Assembly: GCA_028715015.1 (NCBI GenBank)
Contig: JAQTLF010000010.1
Span: 1 to 33,299, forward strand
Source: Candidatus Moraniibacteriota bacterium
GTDB taxonomy: Bacteria > Patescibacteriota > Minisyncoccia > Moranbacterales > GWC2-37-73
Length of the DNA stretch: 33,299 nucleotides
Direction: 5' to 3'
Part shown: positions 1,750 to 28,900 of the stretch, piece by piece
Layout of the letters: every line of letters starts with the position of its first letter
Numbering within the stretch: position 1 is the first letter of the stretch
Notes under the pieces: model-generated
Database searches by the model: none
Told to the model about the DNA's origin: nothing
What the model saw: only the letters and a program-made list of their open reading frames with translations
Translations under genes and position numbers: made by a program

Positions 1750-1855
1750 ATTTTTAGAAATTTCTAAGTTCTAATTTCCAATATCTAATAAAATCTTAAT
1801 TTCAAATGACAAAAATTCAAAGTGCATTAGAAATTAGTTATTAGACATTAGGAAT
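1750..1855. repeat. AT-rich repeat-bearing spacer
   Basis: The spacer between the DUF3048 gene and holA is built from words like TTCTAATTTCC and ATTAGAAATTAG, with partial complementarity between its two ends. The same vocabulary recurs at 14579-14600 and 28741-28900. No coding potential was seen. Confidence 0.5.
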
Positions 1856-2967: not shown

Positions 2968-3816
2968 TTAATTTTGGCATTTGGGGCAATGAAAAGTGCT
3001 TCGTTGCCCTATGACTGACTTCTCAATAATTGTATCACACCTTTTGCATTTTTGGCCATCGCGCTTGTAAACTTTCAAGAAATTTTGAAAAGAACCTTTT
3101 TTCCCAGAGGAATCACGGTAGTCGCTGAAAGATGTCCCTCGCAGCTCGATTGCTTGGCTTAGGATTTTTTTGATGGATCCAAAAAGTTTTTTTGCCTCAA
3201 CGGAATTGAGAGAATTTATTTTGCGCAGGGGACTGGTTTTGATGTCAAAAGGAATTTCACTGGCATAGATGTTGCCTATGCCTGCCACATATGATTGATC
3301 CATTAAAAATTGTTTGAGATTTTTGTTTTTTCCGCGCTCAAGCAGATTTTGAAAATTTGCAAAAGTGTATTGCTCGGAAAATGGATCCAAGCCTTTTTCC
3401 TCCAATTTTTTGCTCAAAGTTTTTTCATCGACAAGTTCCAATGTTCCGAATTTCCTGATGTCAGAAAAATTCAACGTCGCTTTGTTGTCCAGATAAAAAA
3501 TATGATGGATATAATTGTCGTATTTATTTTTTTCTTTTGACATTTGAGATTTTGGATTTGAGATTTTCAGCAACAGTTGCCCCGTCATTTTCAGATGCAC
3601 GATGATGGCTGATTTGTTTTGCAATGTCAGAATGATGTTTTTTCCGCCACGAAAAACCCTGGTTATTTTCTGACCAAGAATGTTTTTTGCAAATTTCTTT
3701 TTGTCGGTCGGTGCCTTGATGGCTTTTTCAAAATCAGACCAAAAATTAATGATTTTGTTGTCGACAATTTTTTGCAAATCGTTCACCACTGTTTGTACTT
3801 CCGGCAATTCAGGCAT
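2968..3816 (-). CDS. mutM: formamidopyrimidine-DNA glycosylase
   Basis: Fpg removes 8-oxoguanine and ring-opened purines and cleaves the abasic site. The start is set by the catalytic N-terminal proline: MPELPEVQTVV, using the ATG at 3816, two codons inside the longest frame. Also visible are the GGKNIIL lysine loop, VHLKMTGQLL, the helix-two-turn-helix QSYVAGIGNIYASE, and a C-terminal zinc finger C-x2-C-x16-C-x2-C ending GQRSTFHCPKCQ with its DNA-contacting Arg. Length is 282 residues. About residues 83-95 (KISNPKSQMSKEK) look like an extra insert between LLL and the HHIFYLD strand, and the DNA there matches the dispersed repeat seen at 160-220. A TAAATT box lies exactly 7 nt before the ATG. 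Confidence 0.95.
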   Translation of the reverse strand: MPELPEVQTVVNDLQKIVDNKIINFWSDFEKAIKAPTDKKKFAKNILGQKITRVFRGGKNIILTLQNKSAIIVHLKMTGQLLLKISNPKSQMSKEKNKYDNYIHHIFYLDNKATLNFSDIRKFGTLELVDEKTLSKKLEEKGLDPFSEQYTFANFQNLLERGKNKNLKQFLMDQSYVAGIGNIYASEIPFDIKTSPLRKINSLNSVEAKKLFGSIKKILSQAIELRGTSFSDYRDSSGKKGSFQNFLKVYKRDGQKCKRCDTIIEKSVIGQRSTFHCPKCQN

Positions 3817-3857
3817 ACACAATAATTTAAAATTTCAAATTTAAAATTTAAAATTAT

Positions 3858-7575: not shown

Positions 7576-8241
7576 ATGAAAAAGTCAGCTAAAACCAAAA
7601 GGATTCAGACGAATAACATCATGTCAATCGAGGAGAAAAGAGATTTTGTAAAGCTGATTCGCAGAATGCCTTGGTTGTACAAGCCCATTTTGGATGCGTT
7701 AAAAGAATATTTGTCACTTTTTAGCAACCTTCTGGATGTTGCTTGTGGAGATGGGTATCTGCTTGAATTGGTTAATTTTTTGAATCCATCATGCAGACTT
7801 TATGGCCTGGATGTTGACTCCTTTTTTGTTAACGAGGGAAGAAAAAAATACAACTTTCAGTTTAATTTGAATGACGTGTATTGTTTGGAAGAAAAGCATG
7901 AAATTGTAACCTGCAATTTGGCATTGCATCATTTTGAAGATCCTGTTTCGTTGGTAAGAAAATTGTTAGATTGTTCAACTAATGTTTTGCTTATTTCTGA
8001 TCAAGTTAGGCCGGCTACGCAAATCGATTTAGAAAGAAGATTAAAAAGGAGAAAATTGTTTATTGGAGACAAGGAAGTCCCTTTTTATGAAAAGAATGAA
8101 AGGGAGTCAATCTTGGAGGCTTATAGCAAAAGTGAAATCGAAGAAGTTTTTTCAGAAATAAAAAATAACAATGCGAGGACGAGGTTGGAATTTATTGATA
8201 GTGACTACTACGAAAGATTCGTGGTTGTAATTGAGAGATAA
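7576..8241 (+). CDS. class I SAM-dependent methyltransferase
   Basis: This 221-residue protein has the Rossmann methyltransferase signature: motif I LLDVACGDGYLLELV (about residues 52-66), an acidic end of strand 2 in LYGLDVDS, and motif IV VTCNLALHHFEDPVSLVRKLL. The substrate cannot be told. It has a strong Shine-Dalgarno sequence (GAGGAGGGG, 7565-7573) and a consensus promoter with an operator-like site, unlike the housekeeping genes nearby. The following radical SAM gene and second methyltransferase suggest a small-molecule or lipid modification cluster; that grouping is an inference from order only. The gene is more AT-rich than polA. Confidence 0.85.
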   Translation: MKKSAKTKRIQTNNIMSIEEKRDFVKLIRRMPWLYKPILDALKEYLSLFSNLLDVACGDGYLLELVNFLNPSCRLYGLDVDSFFVNEGRKKYNFQFNLNDVYCLEEKHEIVTCNLALHHFEDPVSLVRKLLDCSTNVLLISDQVRPATQIDLERRLKRRKLFIGDKEVPFYEKNERESILEAYSKSEIEEVFSEIKNNNARTRLEFIDSDYYERFVVVIER

Positions 8242-8273
8242 GTTGCAAAGAAGCTTTTTTATGCGCATGATAT

Positions 8274-8298
8274 TGGCAAGAGAAAAATTTTCTTGCCA
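8274..8298. other. hairpin after the methyltransferase gene
   Basis: An 8-bp stem TGGCAAGA/TCTTGCCA with an A/T loop. There is no following T-run, so it may stabilise the mRNA end or attenuate rather than terminate. Confidence 0.4.
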
Positions 8299-8338
8299 CT
8301 CTTATTGAGTTTGCCATCGTGGTGAATTCACAGGAGTA

Positions 8339-8352
8339 AAGTTATTTTACAA
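8339..8352 (+). promoter_or_regulatory. leader box AAGTTATTTTACAA
   Basis: A 14-nt word starting 37 nt upstream of the radical SAM ATG, identical to one at 10619-10632 and similar to leader segments of the lipoprotein gene and the noncoding RNA. Downstream is the Shine-Dalgarno AAAAGGAG. Confidence 0.4.
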
Positions 8353-8375
8353 TTACCAAGAAAAGGAGACACGCA

Positions 8376-9710
8376 ATGAAAATAGCACTGGTTGTTCCAA
8401 ATGGTCAGATAAACATGGGCACAATGGGTAATGTCGCCAGGCCATCACTAGGAGTCTGCTACTTGAAGGCATATGTTTCTAAGTATGCGCAATGTACTGT
8501 TAAAGTTTTTCATCAAATAAATGAATCCAACGAGAATATTACAAGACAGATTTTAGATTTTAATCCTGATCTTGTTGGATTCTCTGTTATGAGCTGCGCT
8601 TTTTCTGCTGCTTTATGCATTGCTAAATCCATCAAGGAAACAGATAGTCGAATCAAGACAGTTTTTGGTGGGGAGCATGTTACGGGTTTATTTGTGGATG
8701 AAACAGCTTATGGATCATGCCTTATGAGTAATGCGTTTTATGATAATCCTTGTATTGATTTTTTCATTCCTTTTGAAGGCGAGAGGCCACTCCTTGGATT
8801 AATTCAGGGGCTGAAAGAAAAAAAGGATTTTCAAGACGTACCCGGCATTGTTTTTTGGGATGGAATACGTGTTTGCGTGACATCTAGGGTTGAAAGGGTT
8901 TTGAACCTCGACGATCTTCCCATGGCGGATAGGAGTGATTTGCCTTATGCAAAATATCACTCCCCTGATGATTTATCCGATCTTGAATACATGCACACAA
9001 CAAGGGGATGCAAGTTTAAGTGTATTTATTGTGCAACACCCGTCTCTAATCCTGGGCCTGTTGCTAAAAATTCCGCTGAGCGTATATTGTTTGAAATGAG
9101 ATTTTTGAAAGAGCAATATAACAGGAAATCCTTCTTTTTTTGTGATGAACTTTTTACTACAGATAGAGAAAGGATAGATACGCTTTCCAACGGGATTATA
9201 AATTCTGATCTTAGAGGTCGAGTTGATTGGAGGATATTTGCTAGAGCAGACGATGTTTCCGGGAAAAGGATCGATCTTGACTTGATGAGCAAGGCTGGCT
9301 TGAAAGGACTTTTTTTTGGGATTGAGACTATGAACCCGAGGTCGTTAAAGAAACTTGGAAAAAAATCTAATCCTGAGCAATCAAAGGAGGCTATTAGGCG
9401 AACATACGACGCAGGAATTGATGTTTGGTGTAGCTTGATGATTGGTTATCCATGGGAAACAGAAATAGAGTTAAGGAAATCACTTGATGATTATTTGGAA
9501 ATGTTTTCAATGGGTTTTATCAAACATACCTATGTGGCATTCATTACTCCTTTTCCTGGTACACCATTTTACAATTATTGCTCAAGGAACAACCTAATAG
9601 TTAATCCGAAATTTCTTGACGCTAATTGTAATGAACCTGTCTTAAAAACTCCTGTTTCTAAGGAAAGAATGATCGAGATTTATCAAGAGTTCATTTCGTT
9701 GGTTGCCTGA
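8376..9710 (+). CDS. B12-binding-domain radical SAM protein
   Basis: This 444-residue protein has an N-terminal cobalamin-binding-like fold (about 1-150: IALVVPNGQ, FNPDLVGFSVMS, KTVFGGEHVT, DFFIPFEGE) followed by a radical SAM core with C-x3-C-x2-C at C212, C216 and C219 (RGCKFKCIYC), then GLKGLFFGIET and DVWCSLMIGYPWET. The classic D-x-H-x-x-G histidine ligand is absent from the B12-like domain, as in many family members. Such enzymes do methylations, cyclisations or rearrangements on lipids, tetrapyrroles or natural products; the substrate here is unknown. The ATG has a good Shine-Dalgarno (AAAAGGAG). It is flanked by two methyltransferases. Confidence 0.9.
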   Translation: MKIALVVPNGQINMGTMGNVARPSLGVCYLKAYVSKYAQCTVKVFHQINESNENITRQILDFNPDLVGFSVMSCAFSAALCIAKSIKETDSRIKTVFGGEHVTGLFVDETAYGSCLMSNAFYDNPCIDFFIPFEGERPLLGLIQGLKEKKDFQDVPGIVFWDGIRVCVTSRVERVLNLDDLPMADRSDLPYAKYHSPDDLSDLEYMHTTRGCKFKCIYCATPVSNPGPVAKNSAERILFEMRFLKEQYNRKSFFFCDELFTTDRERIDTLSNGIINSDLRGRVDWRIFARADDVSGKRIDLDLMSKAGLKGLFFGIETMNPRSLKKLGKKSNPEQSKEAIRRTYDAGIDVWCSLMIGYPWETEIELRKSLDDYLEMFSMGFIKHTYVAFITPFPGTPFYNYCSRNNLIVNPKFLDANCNEPVLKTPVSKERMIEIYQEFISLVA

Positions 9711-9717
9711 TCAAATA

Positions 9718-9755
9718 GGCCGGACTTTCCAATGAGTTAGTCCGGTCTTTAATTT
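9718..9755 (+). terminator. terminator after the radical SAM gene
   Basis: Stem GGCCGGACT/AGTCCGGTC (one G-U pair) with a 12-nt loop, followed by TTTAATTTT. Confidence 0.8.
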
Positions 9756-9770
9756 TAATTAAAAAAATTT

Positions 9771-10517
9771 ATGTATTCAAAGAAGGGTGAATTTAATAGA
9801 AAAAGAAGTGAAATGTATGCATCTGCCATGAAAAATGCTTATGATGCAAGAAAAAATGAGCTTAAACTTTTTGATGACAGTTTTAGATATGGAAAGAAAT
9901 TTTTTAAAATAGTTGATTTTGGTGCCGGCAATGCCTTTCTTTCTAATTATTTGGCCGATCATTTTTCTGAATCATATGTTTTTGCGCTGGATCCTTCTCT
10001 TGAAATGTTGACTAGCAATATAAATAAGAGAATAAAATCAATTAATGATATTGAAAAAATAAATAATAATTCTGTTGATGCTATTTTTTCTTTGGCGGCT
10101 TTCCATCATGTAACCAACAAAAAAATGATTTTAAGAAAAATGCATCAAATTTTAAAGAAAAACGGATTAATATTTATTGTGGATGTTTGTGATAAATCAG
10201 TAAACCAAAGATTTTTTGATGAAATCGTTTCTAAATATAGTATAACTGGACACGATTTTGATTTTTTAAATAAAGACTGGATGAGATATTTAGCCAAGGA
10301 ATCCGGTTTTGTTTTGAAAAAAGTCAAGCAAAATGAAATTTATTGGGAGTTTGAAAATGAAAAACAAGCAATTTTATTTGTTAAAAATATAACTGGATTA
10401 AAAATGAGAACTGATAAATTAAGAAATTATATTTTAACTAATTTTGAAATAAAAAAATCCAAGAGCCAGTTTCTATTAAGATGGCCACTTGGATATTTTG
10501 TTTTGGAAAAAAAATAA
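9771..10517 (+). CDS. class I SAM-dependent methyltransferase, AT-rich
   Basis: This 248-residue protein carries the type-11 methyltransferase order: KIVDFGAGNAFLSNYLADHF (motif I, about 46-65), VFALDPSLEML, then VDAIFSLAAFHHVTNKKMIL and QILKKNGLIFIVDV. The substrate is unknown. Base composition is visibly more AT-rich than its neighbours and Lys/Asn/Ile codons dominate, which hints at separate acquisition. No Shine-Dalgarno is seen (an A/T-run precedes the ATG), unlike the genes on either side, and a terminator lies just before it, so it may be transcribed separately or by read-through. Confidence 0.82.
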   Translation: MYSKKGEFNRKRSEMYASAMKNAYDARKNELKLFDDSFRYGKKFFKIVDFGAGNAFLSNYLADHFSESYVFALDPSLEMLTSNINKRIKSINDIEKINNNSVDAIFSLAAFHHVTNKKMILRKMHQILKKNGLIFIVDVCDKSVNQRFFDEIVSKYSITGHDFDFLNKDWMRYLAKESGFVLKKVKQNEIYWEFENEKQAILFVKNITGLKMRTDKLRNYILTNFEIKKSKSQFLLRWPLGYFVLEKK

Positions 10518-10553
10518 GTTTTGTAAATCATTAAGAGCAATAGGATAGACCTC

Positions 10554-10576
10554 AAGAGCCTGACCAGCTCTTTTTT
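10554..10576 (+). terminator. terminator after the second methyltransferase
   Basis: Stem AAGAGC/GCTCTT, loop CTGACCA, followed by a T-run. Confidence 0.75.
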
Positions 10577-10578
10577 AC

Positions 10579-10632
10579 TTGCCAAATCGCAAATACGGGC
10601 TAGAATCAAATCAAGACTAAGTTATTTTACAA
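10579..10632 (+). promoter_or_regulatory. promoter plus leader box for the small gene at 10648
   Basis: TTGCCA (10579-10584), 16 nt, TAGAAT (10601-10606), then the leader word AAGTTATTTTACAA (10619-10632) that also precedes the radical SAM gene. The start point should lie just before the box, so the box would be at the 5' end of the mRNA. Confidence 0.6.
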
Positions 10633-10647
10633 AAGGGGGATGCAATC

Positions 10648-11073
10648 ATGGCCAATATAAGGGTTCTGTTTGGTCCAGATAAATTTGCAGGCAAGGTGCT
10701 GCCAATTCCTGACGAAGTGAGAAAAATCGGAAGCACTTTTACGGAAATGGTTGTAAAAAGATGCTTTTGGGTGATAGATATGTCTGGACTTGATGAAAAT
10801 CAATCATACGAAGTTAAGGTGATGGATTTTTCAGCCAGGTGTGTCCGCTCAATCTGTATGGGGATTCCCGTTTTTATTGATGGACAAAAAGTTGTGGCCA
10901 CAACCATCAGCAAAAAGTCCATCGATGCTGTTTTACACAAAGTCATCAACCTGCTGGCGGTTTCCAATGGGAACATGATTTTTGCCGAGGACAGCAACAA
11001 AGAGCTGCGAATCGAAATCATCCCAAATGCCGGAAGCGATGATTTTGAGGATATGATCTTTGCCAACACCTAA
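10648..11073 (+). CDS. small protein of unknown function
   Basis: I do not recognise this 141-residue protein. It starts MANIRVLFGPDKFAGKVLP, has no obvious membrane segment, mixes short beta-like stretches (RCFWVIDMSG, YEVKVMDFSA, GNMIFAEDS, LRIEIIP) with one helix-like region (KKSIDAVLHKVINLLAV), and ends acidic (GSDDFEDMIF). It is a self-contained unit: promoter, leader box, Shine-Dalgarno (AAAAGGGGG) and terminator. No partner gene gives a clear hint; it follows the radical SAM/methyltransferase genes but has its own promoter. Confidence 0.75.
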   Translation: MANIRVLFGPDKFAGKVLPIPDEVRKIGSTFTEMVVKRCFWVIDMSGLDENQSYEVKVMDFSARCVRSICMGIPVFIDGQKVVATTISKKSIDAVLHKVINLLAVSNGNMIFAEDSNKELRIEIIPNAGSDDFEDMIFANT

Positions 11074-13527: not shown

Positions 13528-13556
13528 TAAAAAAGAGCTTAGAGCTCTTTTTTTGT
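13528..13556. terminator. terminator overlapping the tsaE stop codon
   Basis: The stem AAGAGCT/AGCTCTT with loop TAG and flanking A and T runs includes the last codons and the TAA of tsaE on the minus strand. Confidence 0.8.
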
Positions 13557-14027
13557 TGAAATTGTTATTTTTCTTTCTTTTTCACTGAGCCATTCGAATT
13601 TGAGCCAGAGGGCATCGGATGGAATTATTTTGCGCACTTTTTCAGGCCACTCGATGATGGTGATGGAAGTTTTCTTTCCGGCAAAATCTGCAAATCCCAG
13701 TTCTAGCAAATCTTTGGATTTTATGCGATAAGCATCGATATGGTAAATATCATAGATCATGGAGCATGAAGCATGGAGCATTTGTTTTTCTGTTCCATGT
13801 TGTATACTATGTGCTCTATTGTTATATTGTTTCACTATGGTGAAAGTTGGGCTCGTGTAGGGTCCTTTTATTTTCAATCCTTTCAAAAGTCCTTGGGTGA
13901 AAGTTGTTTTGCCGGCGCCCAAATCTCCAGCAAGGCAAATAATCTCTCCACCAACAACTTCACCTGCAAGAATTTCTCCCAGTTTTTTGGTTTGGATTGA
14001 AGATGTGGTGACAAATTCGTTTGGCAT
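13539..14027 (-). CDS. tsaE: tRNA threonylcarbamoyladenosine biosynthesis ATPase TsaE
   Basis: TsaE works with TsaB and TsaD in making the t6A base of tRNA. Start at 14027 (MPNEFVTTSSIQTKKLGEIL) gives 162 residues; the longer frame has an unrelated N-terminus overlapping a terminator. Motifs: Walker A GDLGAGKTTFTQGL, SPTFTIV, YHIDAYRI and IIEWPEKV. Between SPTFTIVKQY and YHIDAYR lies an insert of ~25 residues (NNRAHSIQHGTEKQMLHASC...) where the family has only a short linker. Its DNA matches the intergenic repeat at 27236-27340 (ATAGAGCACATA, GCTTCATGCTCCATG), so it looks like an in-frame repeat insertion. The stop lies within a terminator stem-loop. Confidence 0.93.
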   Translation of the reverse strand: MPNEFVTTSSIQTKKLGEILAGEVVGGEIICLAGDLGAGKTTFTQGLLKGLKIKGPYTSPTFTIVKQYNNRAHSIQHGTEKQMLHASCSMIYDIYHIDAYRIKSKDLLELGFADFAGKKTSITIIEWPEKVRKIIPSDALWLKFEWLSEKERKITISTKKEL

Positions 14028-15840: not shown

Positions 15841-15955
15841 ACTTACGCATTTGCCCTCACCAAACATCAAAGTTCATCATACACGGGTTTTTATGAAACA
15901 AAAATAATCTTTGAGCTGACCTCACCTGATGTTTGGCTCGGACAAACGCGTAAGT
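15841..15955. mobile_element. MITE-like element with 29-bp terminal inverted repeats
   Basis: A 115-bp element bounded by 29-nt inverted repeats (15841-15869 and 15927-15955) that agree at most positions: outer ACTTACGC..TTTG and inner CCAAACATCA. The 57-bp interior has no gene. No clear target duplication was seen at the flanks (TTTAGA / CATAAT). The compact non-coding form suggests a MITE or a relic of an insertion sequence whose ends begin ACTTACGC. Confidence 0.7.
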
Positions 15956-16063
15956 CATAATATTATCAAATTCAGAAAAATTAATTTTTTTGAATTTTCT
16001 AAAACAAAAACAAATTTTCTGTATTCATGTTACATGCTACATGTTACATGCTACATGACCTAT

Positions 16064-19000
16064 ATGGTAAAAGTATCACACAAACAACTGGCGCACGATG
16101 ATGACAAGGAAGTCCAGGCTGGAAAGATCCTCCAACACATGCGGGGAGAATCCGAAGAAGAACAGGCGGCGCAATTGGCCAACGAATACGATCTTTCCTA
16201 TGTTGATCTGAACATTTTTCCTGTGGGCGCGGATGACATGCGCACCATCAGCGAAGAACAGTCGCGTGAATTCCATGTCTGTGTTTTTCAAAAAGCAGGC
16301 AAAGAATTGCGCATGGGGTTGGTTGACCCTGCCGATGCGAAAACTTTAGAGTTTATTGAAAAAATCAAGAATGAAAATGGATGGGCAGTGCATCTCTATG
16401 TGATTTCAAATGCTTCATTGGAAAAAATTTGGAAAAGATATGCGGAAATTCCTCTTTTGGAAAATCTGGAAGCCATGCAGATCACGCTCAGTGGAAAAGA
16501 TCTGGAACAGTTCGAAAAGGAATTCGGCAGCATGTTGGATTTGAAAAAAAGAATCAGGGAAATTCCAACAACCCAGATCATTTCCATCATCATGGCTGGA
16601 GCTGTGAAAATGAAAGCCAGTGATGTGCATTTCGAACCTCAAGAAGAGGAAGTGCGCATGCGATTCCGCATCGATGGCGTCTTGCAAGATGTGGGAAGAT
16701 TTCCCTCCGACACCTATCGTTTCATTTTGTCCCGCATCAAGATGATGGGAAAAATGAAAATAAACATCCGCGACATCGCCCAGGACGGTCATTTTTCAGT
16801 TGAGATGGAAGATGGAAAAATAAATGTCAGAACCAACATCATTCCTGGAAATCATGGAGAATCAGTAGTTATGAGACTTTTAAGTCAGGCTGACATCATG
16901 CTCACTGTTGAGGATCTGGGTCTGCGAGGTTTGGCCTATGAACATGTGCAAAAAGAAATTGAAAAACCTCATGGCATGATTTTGACTACCGGACCGACTG
17001 GAAGCGGAAAAACCACGACTTTATACGCTTTGGTAAACAAGCTCAACACTGCCGGCGTGAAAATAATCACCATCGAAGATCCGATTGAATATGAAGTGAA
17101 AAACATTTCACAAACCCAAGTTGCCAAAGACAGAAACTATACTTTTGCAGAAGGACTGCGCGCGGTGGTGCGTCAAGATCCCGATGTTATTTTGGTGGGT
17201 GAAATTCGTGATGATGAAACAGCTGACATTTCAGTCAATGCTGCTCTCACTGGACATCTTGTGCTTTCAACTTTGCACACCAACAATGCGCCGGCTTCGA
17301 TCCCTCGTTTTATTGAACTCGGAATCAAACCCAATCTTATTGCTCCGTCAGTGAATGCTTTCATCGCGCAACGTTTGGTGAGAAAACTTTGTCCGCATTG
17401 TCGCGAGGAATATGTACCGGCACGTGAAACCAGCGATTCAGTCAAAAAAATTCTTTCCATCATTTCACCGAAAGCTAAATTGGAAATTCCCAAGACCATC
17501 GAAAAACTATATCGTCCAGTTGGTTGCGACAAATGTCATGGCATCGGCTTCAAAGGACGCATCGGTATTTTCGAAGTGCTCACCATCAGTGAAAACATTG
17601 AGAAATTAATTTTGGAAATGGGCGGCGAAAGGGAAATAACCCAGACAGCCCTGGAAGACGGAATGATCACCATGGCGCAAGATGGAATATTGAAGGCGGT
17701 TGACGGACTCACTTCGATGGAGGAAGTGTGGCGCGCAACCGGACAAACTGATTTTTTGGAAGAGATCTATGAAAAATTGATGGCACAATCGATGTCTCGC
17801 GCCATTGATATTTCCGAAGAAGACATGCAATTGGTTTCAGACAGCATGGGCTCGATGGAATCGTTGAAAAATTTATTGCAAGATTCGAATCAAAAAAGCA
17901 GCGCCAAATATATTTTTGCCAGCAGTCTGCTTTTGAATGTGGGAGACATACACATCGAACCGGAAGAAAAAAGTGTGAAGATCCGCTATCGCATGGATGG
18001 AATTTTGCAGACAATCGCAGAAATCCCACTCAATGAATATCCAAGTCTTTTGGGCAGCATCAAATTCTTGAGCGGATTTTCCACTGAAGTGCGTGGCGGA
18101 GTGATGGATTCGCGTTTTTCCATCGCTTTGGAAAAACCTTTCAAAAACATCACCGACACGAAAGTCGATGTGCGTGTTTCCATAATTTTGGGAGGTTATG
18201 GCGAAACAGTCGTGATGCGGCTTCTCAACAAATCATCAATCGCTTTGGACATTGAAAAATTGGGAATTCGAAAACAAAATTTGGAAAGGATCATAGCAGC
18301 CACCAAAAAACCCAATGGCGTTTTTCTGACCACCGGACCGACTGGATCGGGAAAAACCACCACACTGTACTCCGCGCTGAAAGTTCTGAACAATCCTGAA
18401 GTGAAAATAATCACAGTCGAAGATCCGATCGAATATCAGCTTGATGGAATTTTGCAAACATCAGTCAATGACAAGGAAGGTTACACCTTTGCGACCGCAC
18501 TTCGCGCGCTTTTGCGTCAAAATCCTGACATCATGATGATCGGTGAAATCCGCGACGAAGAAACGGCCAACATTGCCATCCAGGCAGCTTTGACCGGTCA
18601 CTCGATTCTTTCCACCTTGCACACCAACGACGCCGCAGGCTCAATCCAGCGTCTGGTGAACATGGGAGTACGCTCTGATGATCTGGCCACTGCCGTGAAC
18701 GCTTTGATGGCTCAACGGCTGGTGCGAAAACTTTGTGATTGCAAAACCGAAAGGCAACTCAGTGAAGAAGAAATTTCAAGAATGAAAAAAGTTTTTGCAA
18801 ACATTTCAGAAAAATCAGGAATTTCCGTGCCCGACATCCAAAAAGTTTTTGAACCTAAGGGCTGTGACAAATGCAACAACATTGGCTACAAAGGACGCAC
18901 AACCATCAGTGAAGTCTTGGTCGTCGATCGCGACATCGAAGAACTGATCACCCAAGGCGCTTCATCTTCCCAAATCCGCGACAAAGCCATGGAAAACGGC

Positions 19001-19081
19001 ATGATAACAATGGAGCAAGATGGCCTGCTCAAAGTCCTTGAAGGCGAGACGACTTTGGAAGAAGTGGAAAGAGTGGTATAA
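16064..19081 (+). CDS. pilB: tandem PilB/GspE-type pilus assembly ATPase (two modules in one chain)
   Basis: From the ATG at 16064 (MVKVSHKQLAHDDDKEVQAG) the protein has 1005 residues, about twice the usual core. An N-terminal MshEN-like domain (~1-140) precedes module 1 with Walker A GPTGSGKTTT (310-317), Asp box TIEDPIEYE, Walker B DVILVGEIRDDET (~373), His box STLHTNN, and zinc cysteines C443/C446 and C488/C491. Module 2 repeats this: Walker A 758-765, TVEDPIEYQ, IMMIGEIRDEET, STLHTND, and cysteines C891/C893 and C934/C937, where the first pair is C-x-C. Both ATPase sites look intact. PilB powers type IV pilus extension. Upstream codons from 15929 come from the MITE and repeat DNA and are not counted. 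Confidence 0.93.
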   Translation: MVKVSHKQLAHDDDKEVQAGKILQHMRGESEEEQAAQLANEYDLSYVDLNIFPVGADDMRTISEEQSREFHVCVFQKAGKELRMGLVDPADAKTLEFIEKIKNENGWAVHLYVISNASLEKIWKRYAEIPLLENLEAMQITLSGKDLEQFEKEFGSMLDLKKRIREIPTTQIISIIMAGAVKMKASDVHFEPQEEEVRMRFRIDGVLQDVGRFPSDTYRFILSRIKMMGKMKINIRDIAQDGHFSVEMEDGKINVRTNIIPGNHGESVVMRLLSQADIMLTVEDLGLRGLAYEHVQKEIEKPHGMILTTGPTGSGKTTTLYALVNKLNTAGVKIITIEDPIEYEVKNISQTQVAKDRNYTFAEGLRAVVRQDPDVILVGEIRDDETADISVNAALTGHLVLSTLHTNNAPASIPRFIELGIKPNLIAPSVNAFIAQRLVRKLCPHCREEYVPARETSDSVKKILSIISPKAKLEIPKTIEKLYRPVGCDKCHGIGFKGRIGIFEVLTISENIEKLILEMGGEREITQTALEDGMITMAQDGILKAVDGLTSMEEVWRATGQTDFLEEIYEKLMAQSMSRAIDISEEDMQLVSDSMGSMESLKNLLQDSNQKSSAKYIFASSLLLNVGDIHIEPEEKSVKIRYRMDGILQTIAEIPLNEYPSLLGSIKFLSGFSTEVRGGVMDSRFSIALEKPFKNITDTKVDVRVSIILGGYGETVVMRLLNKSSIALDIEKLGIRKQNLERIIAATKKPNGVFLTTGPTGSGKTTTLYSALKVLNNPEVKIITVEDPIEYQLDGILQTSVNDKEGYTFATALRALLRQNPDIMMIGEIRDEETANIAIQAALTGHSILSTLHTNDAAGSIQRLVNMGVRSDDLATAVNALMAQRLVRKLCDCKTERQLSEEEISRMKKVFANISEKSGISVPDIQKVFEPKGCDKCNNIGYKGRTTISEVLVVDRDIEELITQGASSSQIRDKAMENGMITMEQDGLLKVLEGETTLEEVERVV

Positions 19082-21717: not shown

Positions 21718-21785
21718 TTTCTGTTTTGTGCATGGGGGCACAGCAAATTCGGGTGAAAACAACACAAAAACAAACAGCCCATCTG

Positions 21786-23846
21786 ATGGAAGTCCGATGG
21801 GTAAAAAAATCATTCAAATATCAAGCGCTGTTGGTGCCACTTTTTGTGGCGCTTTTTGTTTGGCAAGATGTTTTTGGAAAAGGCAGTGACCATCTGGTCG
21901 TAAACGAAATCCAATATGAAGATTCGGAAGGCAATTCCAAACATGATTTCGTGGAGATATACAATCCGACAGACCATGACATCGATTTGGGAAATTTCAA
22001 TTTGTCCAAAATGACTTCCAGTGGAAAAACATATGGGATCAAAAGTCCATTGGCCAACAAAGGAACTATGCTCAAATCAAAATCTTTTTACGTCTGGGCC
22101 AGCACTGCAGACAGCGAATATGCCAAAAGCATCAAGGCGGACATTGCCACTTCTGAAACTCTGGCCAACAACAATGCGGTTGCAATCATCAATCGTTCTG
22201 ACTCAAGCGTTGTCGACGGCGTCTGTTGGGGAACATTGGATGCAAGCAAAATAGATTATTGCGAAAAAAATTCCTTTGTCTCGTCTTTCGTCAAAGCAAG
22301 CATGGGCAGGATTGACGGCGCTGACAGTGATGACAATCCGGCAGATTTTTTTGTTTTGAAAAATTCTTCACCTGGCAAGGAGAATGTGAAATTGGAAGAA
22401 GAAAAGAAAGAAGAAGACAAAACTGAAACCAAACCGAAAGAATATCCCACCGGAATTTCAATCACCGAACTTTTTCCCAATCCATTCCAATCCCAATATG
22501 AAGAATATGTCGAGCTGTATAATGGCACGAATGAAGACGTCGATCTTTTGGGTTGGACTTTGCACGACGCTTCCAAATCAGGAAAATATACTTTTTTGGA
22601 AAGCGTTGTCATTAAAGCCAAAAAATATCTGGCAATCTTCAAAAAAGATTTCAAATTCGCGCTCAACAATTCTGGCAATGAAAGCGTCACACTTTTTGAT
22701 CCCAATGGAAAAGAAATCGCCAACGCCATCTATGATGGCAGCCAGAAAAATGCTTCCTACAATTTCGATGGCAGCAATTGGCGTTGGAGCAAATTTTTGA
22801 CTCCGGGAGGTGAAAACATTTTGAACAACCAGCCTTTCGGAACAGTGGAAATCGACAATGAAGTTTTTGCCGGAGCGTATGCTGATTTTGCAATTGCAAC
22901 CGGTGATCTTGATGGCGACAAGGTGAAAATTTCTTGGGATTTTGGCGATGGTCACAAAAGTTATCTGGCAAAAACGCGGCACAAATATGAAAAAGTCGGA
23001 ACCTATCAGGCAAGCGTGAAATTGTCAGATGGCAGCGAAGATGTTTTGAAAAATTTCACGGTTGAAGTGGAAGAATTTCCATATCCGGAAATAAAAATCA
23101 TCGCCATCAATGCCAATCCCGACGGCTCAGACACAGGAGCTGAATCAATAACTGTGCAGAACAAATCAAAAAAGAAAATCAATCTGCTTGGTTGGAGCAT
23201 CGCAACCGGTTGGAAAAAATTCATCAATCATCCGATCAAAGAAGATGTTGTCATCAAGCAAAATGCAGTGCAAGAACTGACGCACGACGTCGCAAGTTTC
23301 GCTCTCAACAACACCAAGGCCAAAATCCAACTGCGCTATCCAGATGGAAAAGTCGCCCACGAAGTCAAATACAAATCTCCCAACAAAACGATTGCCGAAG
23401 GAGAAAAATATGTGAAGGAAAAAGGCGGATGGGCTTGGGTTTTGAGTCAAAAGTCCATCAAGTCAGAAAAGCAGGAAGAAGCAAATCAGTTAGAGGTCAG
23501 CGGTCAACAGTCAACGGAAATGAAGGACATGGAAGAAGAAAACATTTCGTCAGCAGTCAGCAGTGAGCAATCATCTGATCACAATGAAAAAGGCGGTGAA
23601 ATTGCCGGCGCTGAAACTGTGAAAAAAGAAATTGCCATGTTTAGAAAAAATGATCTGAAAAATATCAAGTTGTCAGAGTTTGAGCCCCAAGTTCTCGGAG
23701 CCGAAACAATCCGGATCATTGACGGCCAATATTTTTTCACCTCGCAAAATGTTGAGCAAGAGCATTACGCGCTTTCATTCTTGAAAAACATTGCCTCATA
23801 TTTGAACACAAAACTTAATCTGCTTTTGAATTTTTTCTTCCAATAA
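21786..23846 (+). CDS. exported lamin-tail/PKD-domain surface protein
   Basis: From the ATG at 21786 (MEVRWVKKSFKYQ then a hydrophobic signal segment to about residue 30) the protein has 686 residues; a start at 21732 is also possible. It contains at least two lamin-tail-like domains, recognisable by VVNEIQYEDSEG..DFVEIYNPTDHDIDLGNFNL (~38-75) and ISITELFPNP..EEYVELYNGTNEDVDLLGWTL (~225-270), then a PKD-like domain (ISWDFGDGHKSYLAKTRHKY), a third lamin-tail-like segment (VQNKSKKKINLLGWSI), and a Glu/Ser/Gln-rich stretch (~565-630). Such proteins are common on CPR cell surfaces, function unknown. The acidic stretch is encoded by GTCAACAGTCA-type repeat DNA. Confidence 0.88.
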   Translation: MEVRWVKKSFKYQALLVPLFVALFVWQDVFGKGSDHLVVNEIQYEDSEGNSKHDFVEIYNPTDHDIDLGNFNLSKMTSSGKTYGIKSPLANKGTMLKSKSFYVWASTADSEYAKSIKADIATSETLANNNAVAIINRSDSSVVDGVCWGTLDASKIDYCEKNSFVSSFVKASMGRIDGADSDDNPADFFVLKNSSPGKENVKLEEEKKEEDKTETKPKEYPTGISITELFPNPFQSQYEEYVELYNGTNEDVDLLGWTLHDASKSGKYTFLESVVIKAKKYLAIFKKDFKFALNNSGNESVTLFDPNGKEIANAIYDGSQKNASYNFDGSNWRWSKFLTPGGENILNNQPFGTVEIDNEVFAGAYADFAIATGDLDGDKVKISWDFGDGHKSYLAKTRHKYEKVGTYQASVKLSDGSEDVLKNFTVEVEEFPYPEIKIIAINANPDGSDTGAESITVQNKSKKKINLLGWSIATGWKKFINHPIKEDVVIKQNAVQELTHDVASFALNNTKAKIQLRYPDGKVAHEVKYKSPNKTIAEGEKYVKEKGGWAWVLSQKSIKSEKQEEANQLEVSGQQSTEMKDMEEENISSAVSSEQSSDHNEKGGEIAGAETVKKEIAMFRKNDLKNIKLSEFEPQVLGAETIRIIDGQYFFTSQNVEQEHYALSFLKNIASYLNTKLNLLLNFFFQ

Positions 23847-27196: not shown

Positions 27197-27235
27197 GCTT
27201 GAAATGCTTAAATTGCAATGCTAGTATTAAATCAT

Positions 27236-27340
27236 AGAGCACATAACACATAACACATAACATACAACATATAACATAAAAGACGGCAATGAAATGAGAA
27301 TTTGAATTTTGCTACATGCTTTATGCTATATGCTTCATGA
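27236..27340. repeat. ATAGAGCACATA / GCTTCATG repeat element
   Basis: The spacer before yebC is made of runs of ACATAACACATA words and then GCTACATGCTTTATGC, GCTTCATG words. The same two parts occur inside tsaE (13750-13835, minus strand), and the ATGTTACATGCTACATG form occurs at 16028-16055 before pilB. No gene is present. Confidence 0.7.
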
Positions 27341-27346
27341 AACGAT

Positions 27347-28063: not shown

Positions 28064-28190
28064 TCTTGAGGATTACAAATTGTAATGTCAAGATCCAAAT
28101 GTCAAATGACAAATAAATGACTTAAGCTCAAATAATTAAATTTTTAGATTTTTGTCATTTGAGATTTGAGGCTTGAGATTTTAAAACTTC
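28053..28190. repeat. inverted repeats between yebC and ruvC
   Basis: A perfect 13-bp hairpin ACAATTTGTAATC/GATTACAAATTGT (28053-28083) includes the yebC stop codon. Beyond it TCAAATGACAAA (28102-28113) pairs with TTTGTCATTTGA (28151-28162). Words GAGATTTGAGG and TTGAGATTTT match the dispersed repeat at 160-220. Confidence 0.65.
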
Positions 28191-28740: not shown

Positions 28741-28900
28741 TTGTTTAATGTTTTATTTGTTAAGTTGTTAATTTCTAATTACCAATTATTAATTTCTAAT
28801 TAATGTCCAATTTCTCAATTTCTAAGTTTGGACATTTTAACAATTTTGATTTTATTAGGAATTAGATATTAGAAATTAGAAATTCAAATTTTATAGTTAA
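28741..28900. repeat. AT-rich repeat spacer after ruvC
   Basis: The ~197-bp spacer contains many copies of TTTCTAATT / AATTAGAAATTAG words and the pair TGTCCAATTTC..GGACATT. It is of the same type as 1750-1855. No gene seen; the promoter of the next gene could not be assigned with confidence. Confidence 0.5.

Follow-up and report, generated by a model that had tools for sequence, protein, structure and literature searches.

What kind of DNA occupies the middle of a conserved enzyme gene when its words recur in the spacers of the same chromosome, and how could it have come there? The question is raised by the tsaE gene of a Candidatus Moraniibacteriota bacterium, located in a stretch of 33,299 nucleotides (assembly GCA_028715015.1, contig JAQTLF010000010.1), which was analysed at its full length and is called the window below. 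The gene (13542..14027, minus strand, stop codon at 13539-13541) encodes 162 aa attributed to TsaE by Pfam (PF02367, E 4.3e-33) and by fold: the predicted structure matched B. subtilis TsaE in PDB with E 1.2e-14 (Foldseek), its matches 5np9, 6s84 and 1htw including TsaE of B. subtilis and T. maritima, and the Walker A GxGAGKT-type and HxDxYR motifs are among the invariant alignment columns. The initial annotation proposed that a repeat of intergenic type had been inserted here in frame, adding about 25 residues between intact catalytic motifs. The motifs flanking the insert are indeed intact and the extra residues are real, but their number is closer to 21 when compared with B. subtilis TsaE: phmmer alignment finds no counterpart there for residues 71-91 (13755..13817, minus strand), which sit between SPTFTIVKQY and YHIDAYR, where the B. 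subtilis linker is two residues long. In the AlphaFold2 model (mean pLDDT 85) confidence is low only at residues 74-85 (<50) and in the C-terminal tail, and these residues form the loop joining strands 65-69 and 93-98, so that modelling places the insert in a low-confidence loop between two strands; among aligned distant TsaE proteins it has no conservation, in keeping with the initial reading of a repeat tolerated as protein. An artefact of assembly or gene calling is barely conceivable: the named relatives are metagenome assemblies, as the genome of the window probably is, but Pfam and fold support extend over both sides of the insert, and in-frame inserts occupy the tsaE loop in independent assemblies (UBA12142, GWC1_36_108, GWE2_36_40 and others).

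At the level of DNA the insert corresponds to a two-armed element of heptad words (~13752..13821), delineated by folding and by recurrence of a 23-mer, the folding strand of which is plus, opposite to the coding one. Its first arm (13758..13781, plus) contains 3.4 copies of the CATGGAG heptad according to Tandem Repeats Finder (TRF) and reads CATGGAG CATGAAG CATGGAG; the second (CTGTTCCATGTTGTATACTATGTGCTCTATTG, 13790..13821, plus), recognized by folding and by the inverted repeat I6 shared with a copy at 27.2 kb, is more degenerate and pairs with the first in part via G.U wobbles, giving the overall pattern CATGGAG.../...CTATGTT. RNA of the plus strand folds with -22.8 kcal/mol (z -3.25); folding of the tsaE coding strand as DNA gave no significance. 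The words proposed to be common with the spacer near 27.2 kb are confirmed, and the period is seven in both places: the window has two copies of ATAGAGCACATA, at 13808-13819 (minus) and 27234-27245 (plus), where shuffles predict 0, the CATGNNNCATGNNNCATG pattern with at most one mismatch has 6 matches against 0.14 expected, and TRF reports period-7 arrays at 13758-13781, 27240-27276 and 27310-27339, as it does for most other spacer arrays of the window. The intergenic copy (~27230..27343, minus) possesses both arms, built of CACATAA and TGCTACA heptads, and z of -3.96 on its folding strand; it has the family and the two-arm layout of the tsaE copy, although the sequences are not identical.

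Further arrays are scattered over the window. A single-armed CATGTTACATGCTA array of the word family of the tsaE element (16026..16057, plus; pattern count and TRF) lies upstream of a T2SSE/PilB-like gene; the region 15929-19081 encodes a single 1050-aa protein with two tandem T2SSE/PilB-like ATPase stretches, which are direct DNA repeats 1344 bases apart and 71% identical. Between genes, with strand not assigned, TRF detected AATTTCT/CATTAGA arrays of a separate word family (1759..1851) and an AATTTAA array (3824..3855), and together with inverted-repeat search it detected paired AATGTCA and ATTTGAG arrays (28084..28184, pair I5) and paired TAATTAC and ATTAGAA arrays (28769..28884, pair I3). 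Inside genes, mutM/fpg (2968-3816, minus) carries an array at 3533..3567 (minus) encoding KISNPKSQMSK, which falls into a gap of the PDB alignment and accounts for about 9-10 extra residues in a loop when compared with G. stearothermophilus MutM, and GTCAGCA-type arrays are found by TRF and gene calls at 23489..23575 (plus) within a lamin-tail/PKD-domain protein gene (21726-23846). Apart from these arrays, the block 7576-11073, containing two methyltransferases and a B12-binding radical SAM protein, has low coding-model scores and was possibly acquired horizontally.

The host genome (G000), that of a Moranbacterium (Patescibacteria/CPR) to judge by its nearest named relatives, comprises 1.06 Mb in 61 contigs. 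Searched for the tsaE repeat, as had been suggested, it proved to abound in it: with up to 3 mismatches allowed, the 23-base core is matched 19 times and its reversed control not at all. Arrays were surveyed in a sample of 386 kb, about a third of the genome, with gene calls from a simple home-made hexamer caller, which makes the counts approximate, and with three clusters that were runs of N excluded. The sample contains 81 period-7 arrays, 22 coding and 59 non-coding (0.2 and 0.0 in shuffles), and no other period yields more than 14 arrays, its harmonic 14 excepted. Word families CATGNNR, GTCATCR, AATTTCY, AATTTTA and CAAGATA coexist in this genome. Density of arrays is 9.4-fold lower in coding DNA (P 4e-22), as expected if selection removes most in-gene copies. 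Nevertheless, at least a dozen genes beyond tsaE are affected in this third of the genome: prmC, those for pyruvate kinase (pyk), a MurE-like ligase and a FemAB protein (two arrays), mnmA, gltX, tgt, leuS, lgt, miaB and those for a U32 peptidase, RNase HII and an Elp3-like protein, some of these hosts being named by sequence inspection and Pfam confirming domains among them. In RNase HII, GltX, pyruvate kinase and MutM the arrays coincide with alignment gaps relative to solved homologues. Since 7 and 3 share no factor, the three frames of a stop-free heptad array all give one cyclic peptide of seven residues, a property likely to favour the survival of arrays in genes; the encoded cycles are HAPCSML-like in tsaE and prmC and, from the opposite strand, MEHGAWN-like in the FemAB protein. 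As a separate observation, prmC (C1, 111211-112107) and the gene of the Elp3-like protein (C7, 11488-13182) contain in-frame segments NLDSRLRGNDK and CHSGLDPESSKSHQTKKNLDSHFHGND that look like translated copies of one more dispersed repeat.

We compared the tsaE loop among 15 genomes of the Moranbacteria family in which it is readable, that of the window included. Period 7 fits best in 14 of them (shuffle P <= 0.005), and the words belong to six different families: CATG in G000, G004, G006, G008 and G010, GTTGTC/ACAACAA in G002 and G003, AAGCTA in G005 and G018, AATTTAA—the type found between genes at 3824..3855 of the window—in G009, G011 and G017, TAAAGT in G001 and AATACGA in G014. Loop length varies from 8 residues, found in G012, to 34. 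On a TsaE tree from which the loop was omitted, and many forks of which are weakly supported, the word family changes 9 times against a shuffled mean of 9.3, and G008 and G011 have near-identical tsaE outside the loop and unrelated inserts within it. Judged by these sequences, the loop is best described as a landing site subjected to turnover and not as the trace of a single insertion event, and the differing words of related species suggest that DNA of apparently selfish or neutral nature is turned over continually there. Period 7 is also present in the TsaE loops of Magasanikbacteria type (L062, L064 and L066), and one further TsaE (L061) has RLRQGSGGQ at the loop where heptads sit in others. 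Two more observations concern individual genomes. The AATTTAA insert is nearly identical in G009 and G011, which belong to one genus, and in G017, from another, with other families in close relatives, for which ancient retention, homogenisation and parallel insertion are the alternatives. TsaE of G003 (L050) carries ACPPVRPGAR (DNA CCTGCCCGCCTGTCCGGCCAGGGGCCAGG) as an additional insert not built of heptads, and its EWPEK motif is without the PEK that is invariant elsewhere, so that, to go by its sequence, this protein may be impaired or misassembled.

The main rival to the arrival of words from elsewhere is their birth in place, i.e., replication slippage by seven bases from a chance seed with no movement at all, the likeness of words being ascribed to mutational bias. 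Strict seven-base period and variable copy number agree with it, and polymerase slippage was suggested as the source of heptanucleotide repeats in work cited in PMC4679880. Slippage accounts for the period, but not for the sharing of words: CATGCTC, GTTGTC and AAGCTA each recur at many unrelated loci of a genome while being scarce in a sister genome. Moreover, when three word families were counted, the one occupying tsaE proved the most abundant in its own genome in 8 of 9 cases (permutation P 0.004), a result that makes a genomic pool a likelier source than formation on the spot. A counter-observation to such a pool is G008, whose genome is nearly devoid of the CATG family although its insert is CATG-derived. 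The same diversity bears on the idea that the words serve as high-copy signals for DNA uptake or recombination, as in Neisseria or Haemophilus. Their many copies, inverted pairs between genes and coding copies fit such a role, but uptake words are single and stable, and here several families coexist in a genome and differ in sister genomes, rendering this explanation highly improbable.

The RNase HII gene provides the second locus where sites with and without the element can be compared. The protein has a plain 12-residue loop, GQEIWGDVEPKY or near variants, in G001, G002 and G005; in G000 this loop is replaced by a full two-armed CATG element adding 24 residues, and in G004 the spot of this insert is taken by AAAGTTGAAAGTCAAAAGTTGAAAGTT, made of AAAGTTG heptads of a different family. 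Aligned in this way, the three relatives display the pre-insertion state and G004 an insertion of its own. The pre-insertion AACATGGGACAGGAAAT already resembles the first word of the CATG element, a point in favour of growth from a seed. In tgt of G000 there are two AATTTCC inserts, the second of which has no counterpart in G005 and a differing one in G001 and G002. Two other features of tgt were noticed. An in-frame insert of about ten residues, FSALGGPVSGW, is present in G003, G004, G001 and G002 (L118, L119, L121 and L122) and absent from G000 and G005, being apparently another class of in-frame insertion. Upstream of the gene, G000 and G005 (L117 and L120) have an orthologous hairpin of GTCATC type with a similar centre, in which two compensatory changes are matched on both arms, suggesting arm-to-arm correction or structural constraint.

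A functional insert, be it part of a clade-specific TsaE loop or an mRNA hairpin, has in its favour that the loop is filled in nearly all family members, with no more than eight residues in the case of G012. Within one family, however, these loops differ several-fold in length and have unrelated sequences. Between tsaE of G000 and G004, which have the CATG insert in common, third positions account for 58 of 91 substitutions in the flanks and 4 of 16 in the insert (P 0.005); the lack of third-position excess means that the insert is not kept as an amino-acid sequence. In the pairs G002-G003 and G009-G011 the insert is more conserved than the flanks (P 0.006 and 0.008), which speaks for function and is counter to simple neutrality; possible causes are homogenisation with other genomic copies or an independent insertion, either of them recent. 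Folding of elements into RNA with G.U pairs also favours a functional role. In the CATG family the arms are complementary, and the stem of strand B contains 75 G.U and 10 U.G among 390 pairs; duplexes of strand B are stronger than those of strand A (-32 versus -15 kcal/mol, P 0.0002), and z of -3.2 or lower is reached by 13 of 15 copies on strand B and 3 of 15 on strand A, so that a hairpin formed strongly on one strand is a trait of this family, the others being often single-armed. The tsaE mRNA, however, represents the weaker-folding strand, the Rfam search of the window returned no match, and elements have no overall preference in orientation: an apparent bias against strong mRNA hairpins among hand-picked copies was gone in the full sample, with 19 to 14 between co-directional genes and 7 to 12 inside genes. 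A functional insert is thus rated as improbable, and for TsaE the filled loop would be near-neutral.

The arms are also informative with respect to slippage, which in its simple form does not make two complementary arms at a distance. Centres of the elements are mostly unrelated (1 of 55 centre pairs below 0.01), so that word-by-word growth fits them as well as movement of whole units; the intergenic copies L005 and L006, on the other hand, are alike over about 95 bases including arms and centre, which speaks against slippage. In the CATG family no sign of arm co-evolution was obtained, own arms pairing no better than arms of other copies (P 0.5). Taken together, we regard birth of the arrays wholly in place as unlikely.

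The explanation we consider probable is that these are dispersed, non-autonomous heptad elements resembling Rickettsia palindromic elements (RPEs) in behaviour and landing where reading frame and surface loop permit. An element would be a short run of tandem seven-base words, often in two arms that give an imperfect hairpin, copies of which would be placed continually at many sites of the genome, presumably by copying from the genomic pool, with most ending up between genes. A copy inside a gene would persist only if it keeps the frame, brings no stop and falls into a solvent-exposed loop, and would then be translated as a disordered segment under little amino-acid constraint; arrays would grow and shrink by sevens through slippage and be retained at sites where they do no harm. 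In the TsaE loop that links the SPTF and HIDAYR strands, one word family would have been lost and another gained repeatedly in the evolution of Moranbacteria.

As for the moving agent, neither a transposase nor a moving enzyme of another kind nor a target-site duplication was found for the heptad elements, and the profile search found no Y1_Tnp (PF01797) gene in the genome with its controls detected, on which ground mobilisation of the RAYT/REP type was rejected. Of the features typical for MITEs, inverted arms are present, with no clear target-site duplication at RNase HII and no link to a transposase. Tentatively, and with more doubt than conviction, one may think of an undescribed mobile class of heptad words in Moranbacteria and related CPR bacteria, having its own mechanism and taking the place of older elements in those loops of core proteins that permit it. 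Since one strand pairs by consistent G.U wobbles and the other does not, it would possibly move via RNA or a single-strand hairpin. If so, protein loops would be rewritten rapidly and in a species-specific manner.

Among known systems, REP/REPIN sequences are short dispersed palindromic repeats mobilised by RAYT (Y1_Tnp) transposases. The elements described here are equally short, dispersed and palindromic; they differ by heptad structure, in-frame coding copies and the lack of a Y1_Tnp gene in the host. The palindromic repeats found in frame within core genes of Rickettsia (Ogata 2000, 2002), as summarized in PMC10969869, measure about 150 bp, encode a conserved peptide and form several families per genome. 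Compared by description, the parallel with them drawn initially holds for behaviour: several families of short repeats with palindromic arms occupy spacers and, in frame, a range of unrelated core genes (tsaE, tgt, pyk, gltX, mnmA, miaB, lgt, mutM and those for RNase HII and the MurE-like ligase), protein function remains compatible with them, and insert-free orthologues exist (RNase HII of G001, G002 and G005; G005 for the second tgt insert). In contrast to RPEs, the Moranbacterium element is a heptad array, degenerate and 30-160 bp long, one strand of which gives the same seven-codon cycle in every frame, and the tsaE loop is filled by families that differ between sister species. In sequence, the nearest precedent is offered by cyanobacterial heptanucleotide repeats forming a hairpin in P6b of the Nostoc tRNA-Leu intron (PMC3488679), which, compared by description, have the same degenerate seven-base repeats, hairpin pairing and variable copy number, but reside in an intron stem and not in coding loops of core genes. 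Direct TAACTGA repeats of Beggiatoaceae (PMC4679880) are likewise seven-base and tandem. Most of them lie between genes; those within ORFs tend to be at protein ends or in hypothetical proteins, and forward repeats encode stops. They consist of one word, whereas the Moranbacterium elements interrupt conserved enzymes internally and often have inverted arms. In open-access literature we found no account of such elements in Parcubacteria, Moranbacteria or Patescibacteria. Selfish repeats carried in frame by core genes have been a curiosity associated mainly with Rickettsia; here they turn up, as seven-base words and in many conserved enzymes, in an unrelated phylum of tiny genomes, where protein alignments and gene calls of CPR bacteria have to be read with the warning that they include repeat-encoded segments, where a loop filled repeatedly becomes a natural experiment on which protein loops tolerate insertion, and where the question is raised of what copies the heptad words. 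We place the elements in neither the RPE nor the heptanucleotide-repeat family; what appears to be new is that heptad structure, in-frame insertion at internal positions and repeated replacement at one loop occur together.
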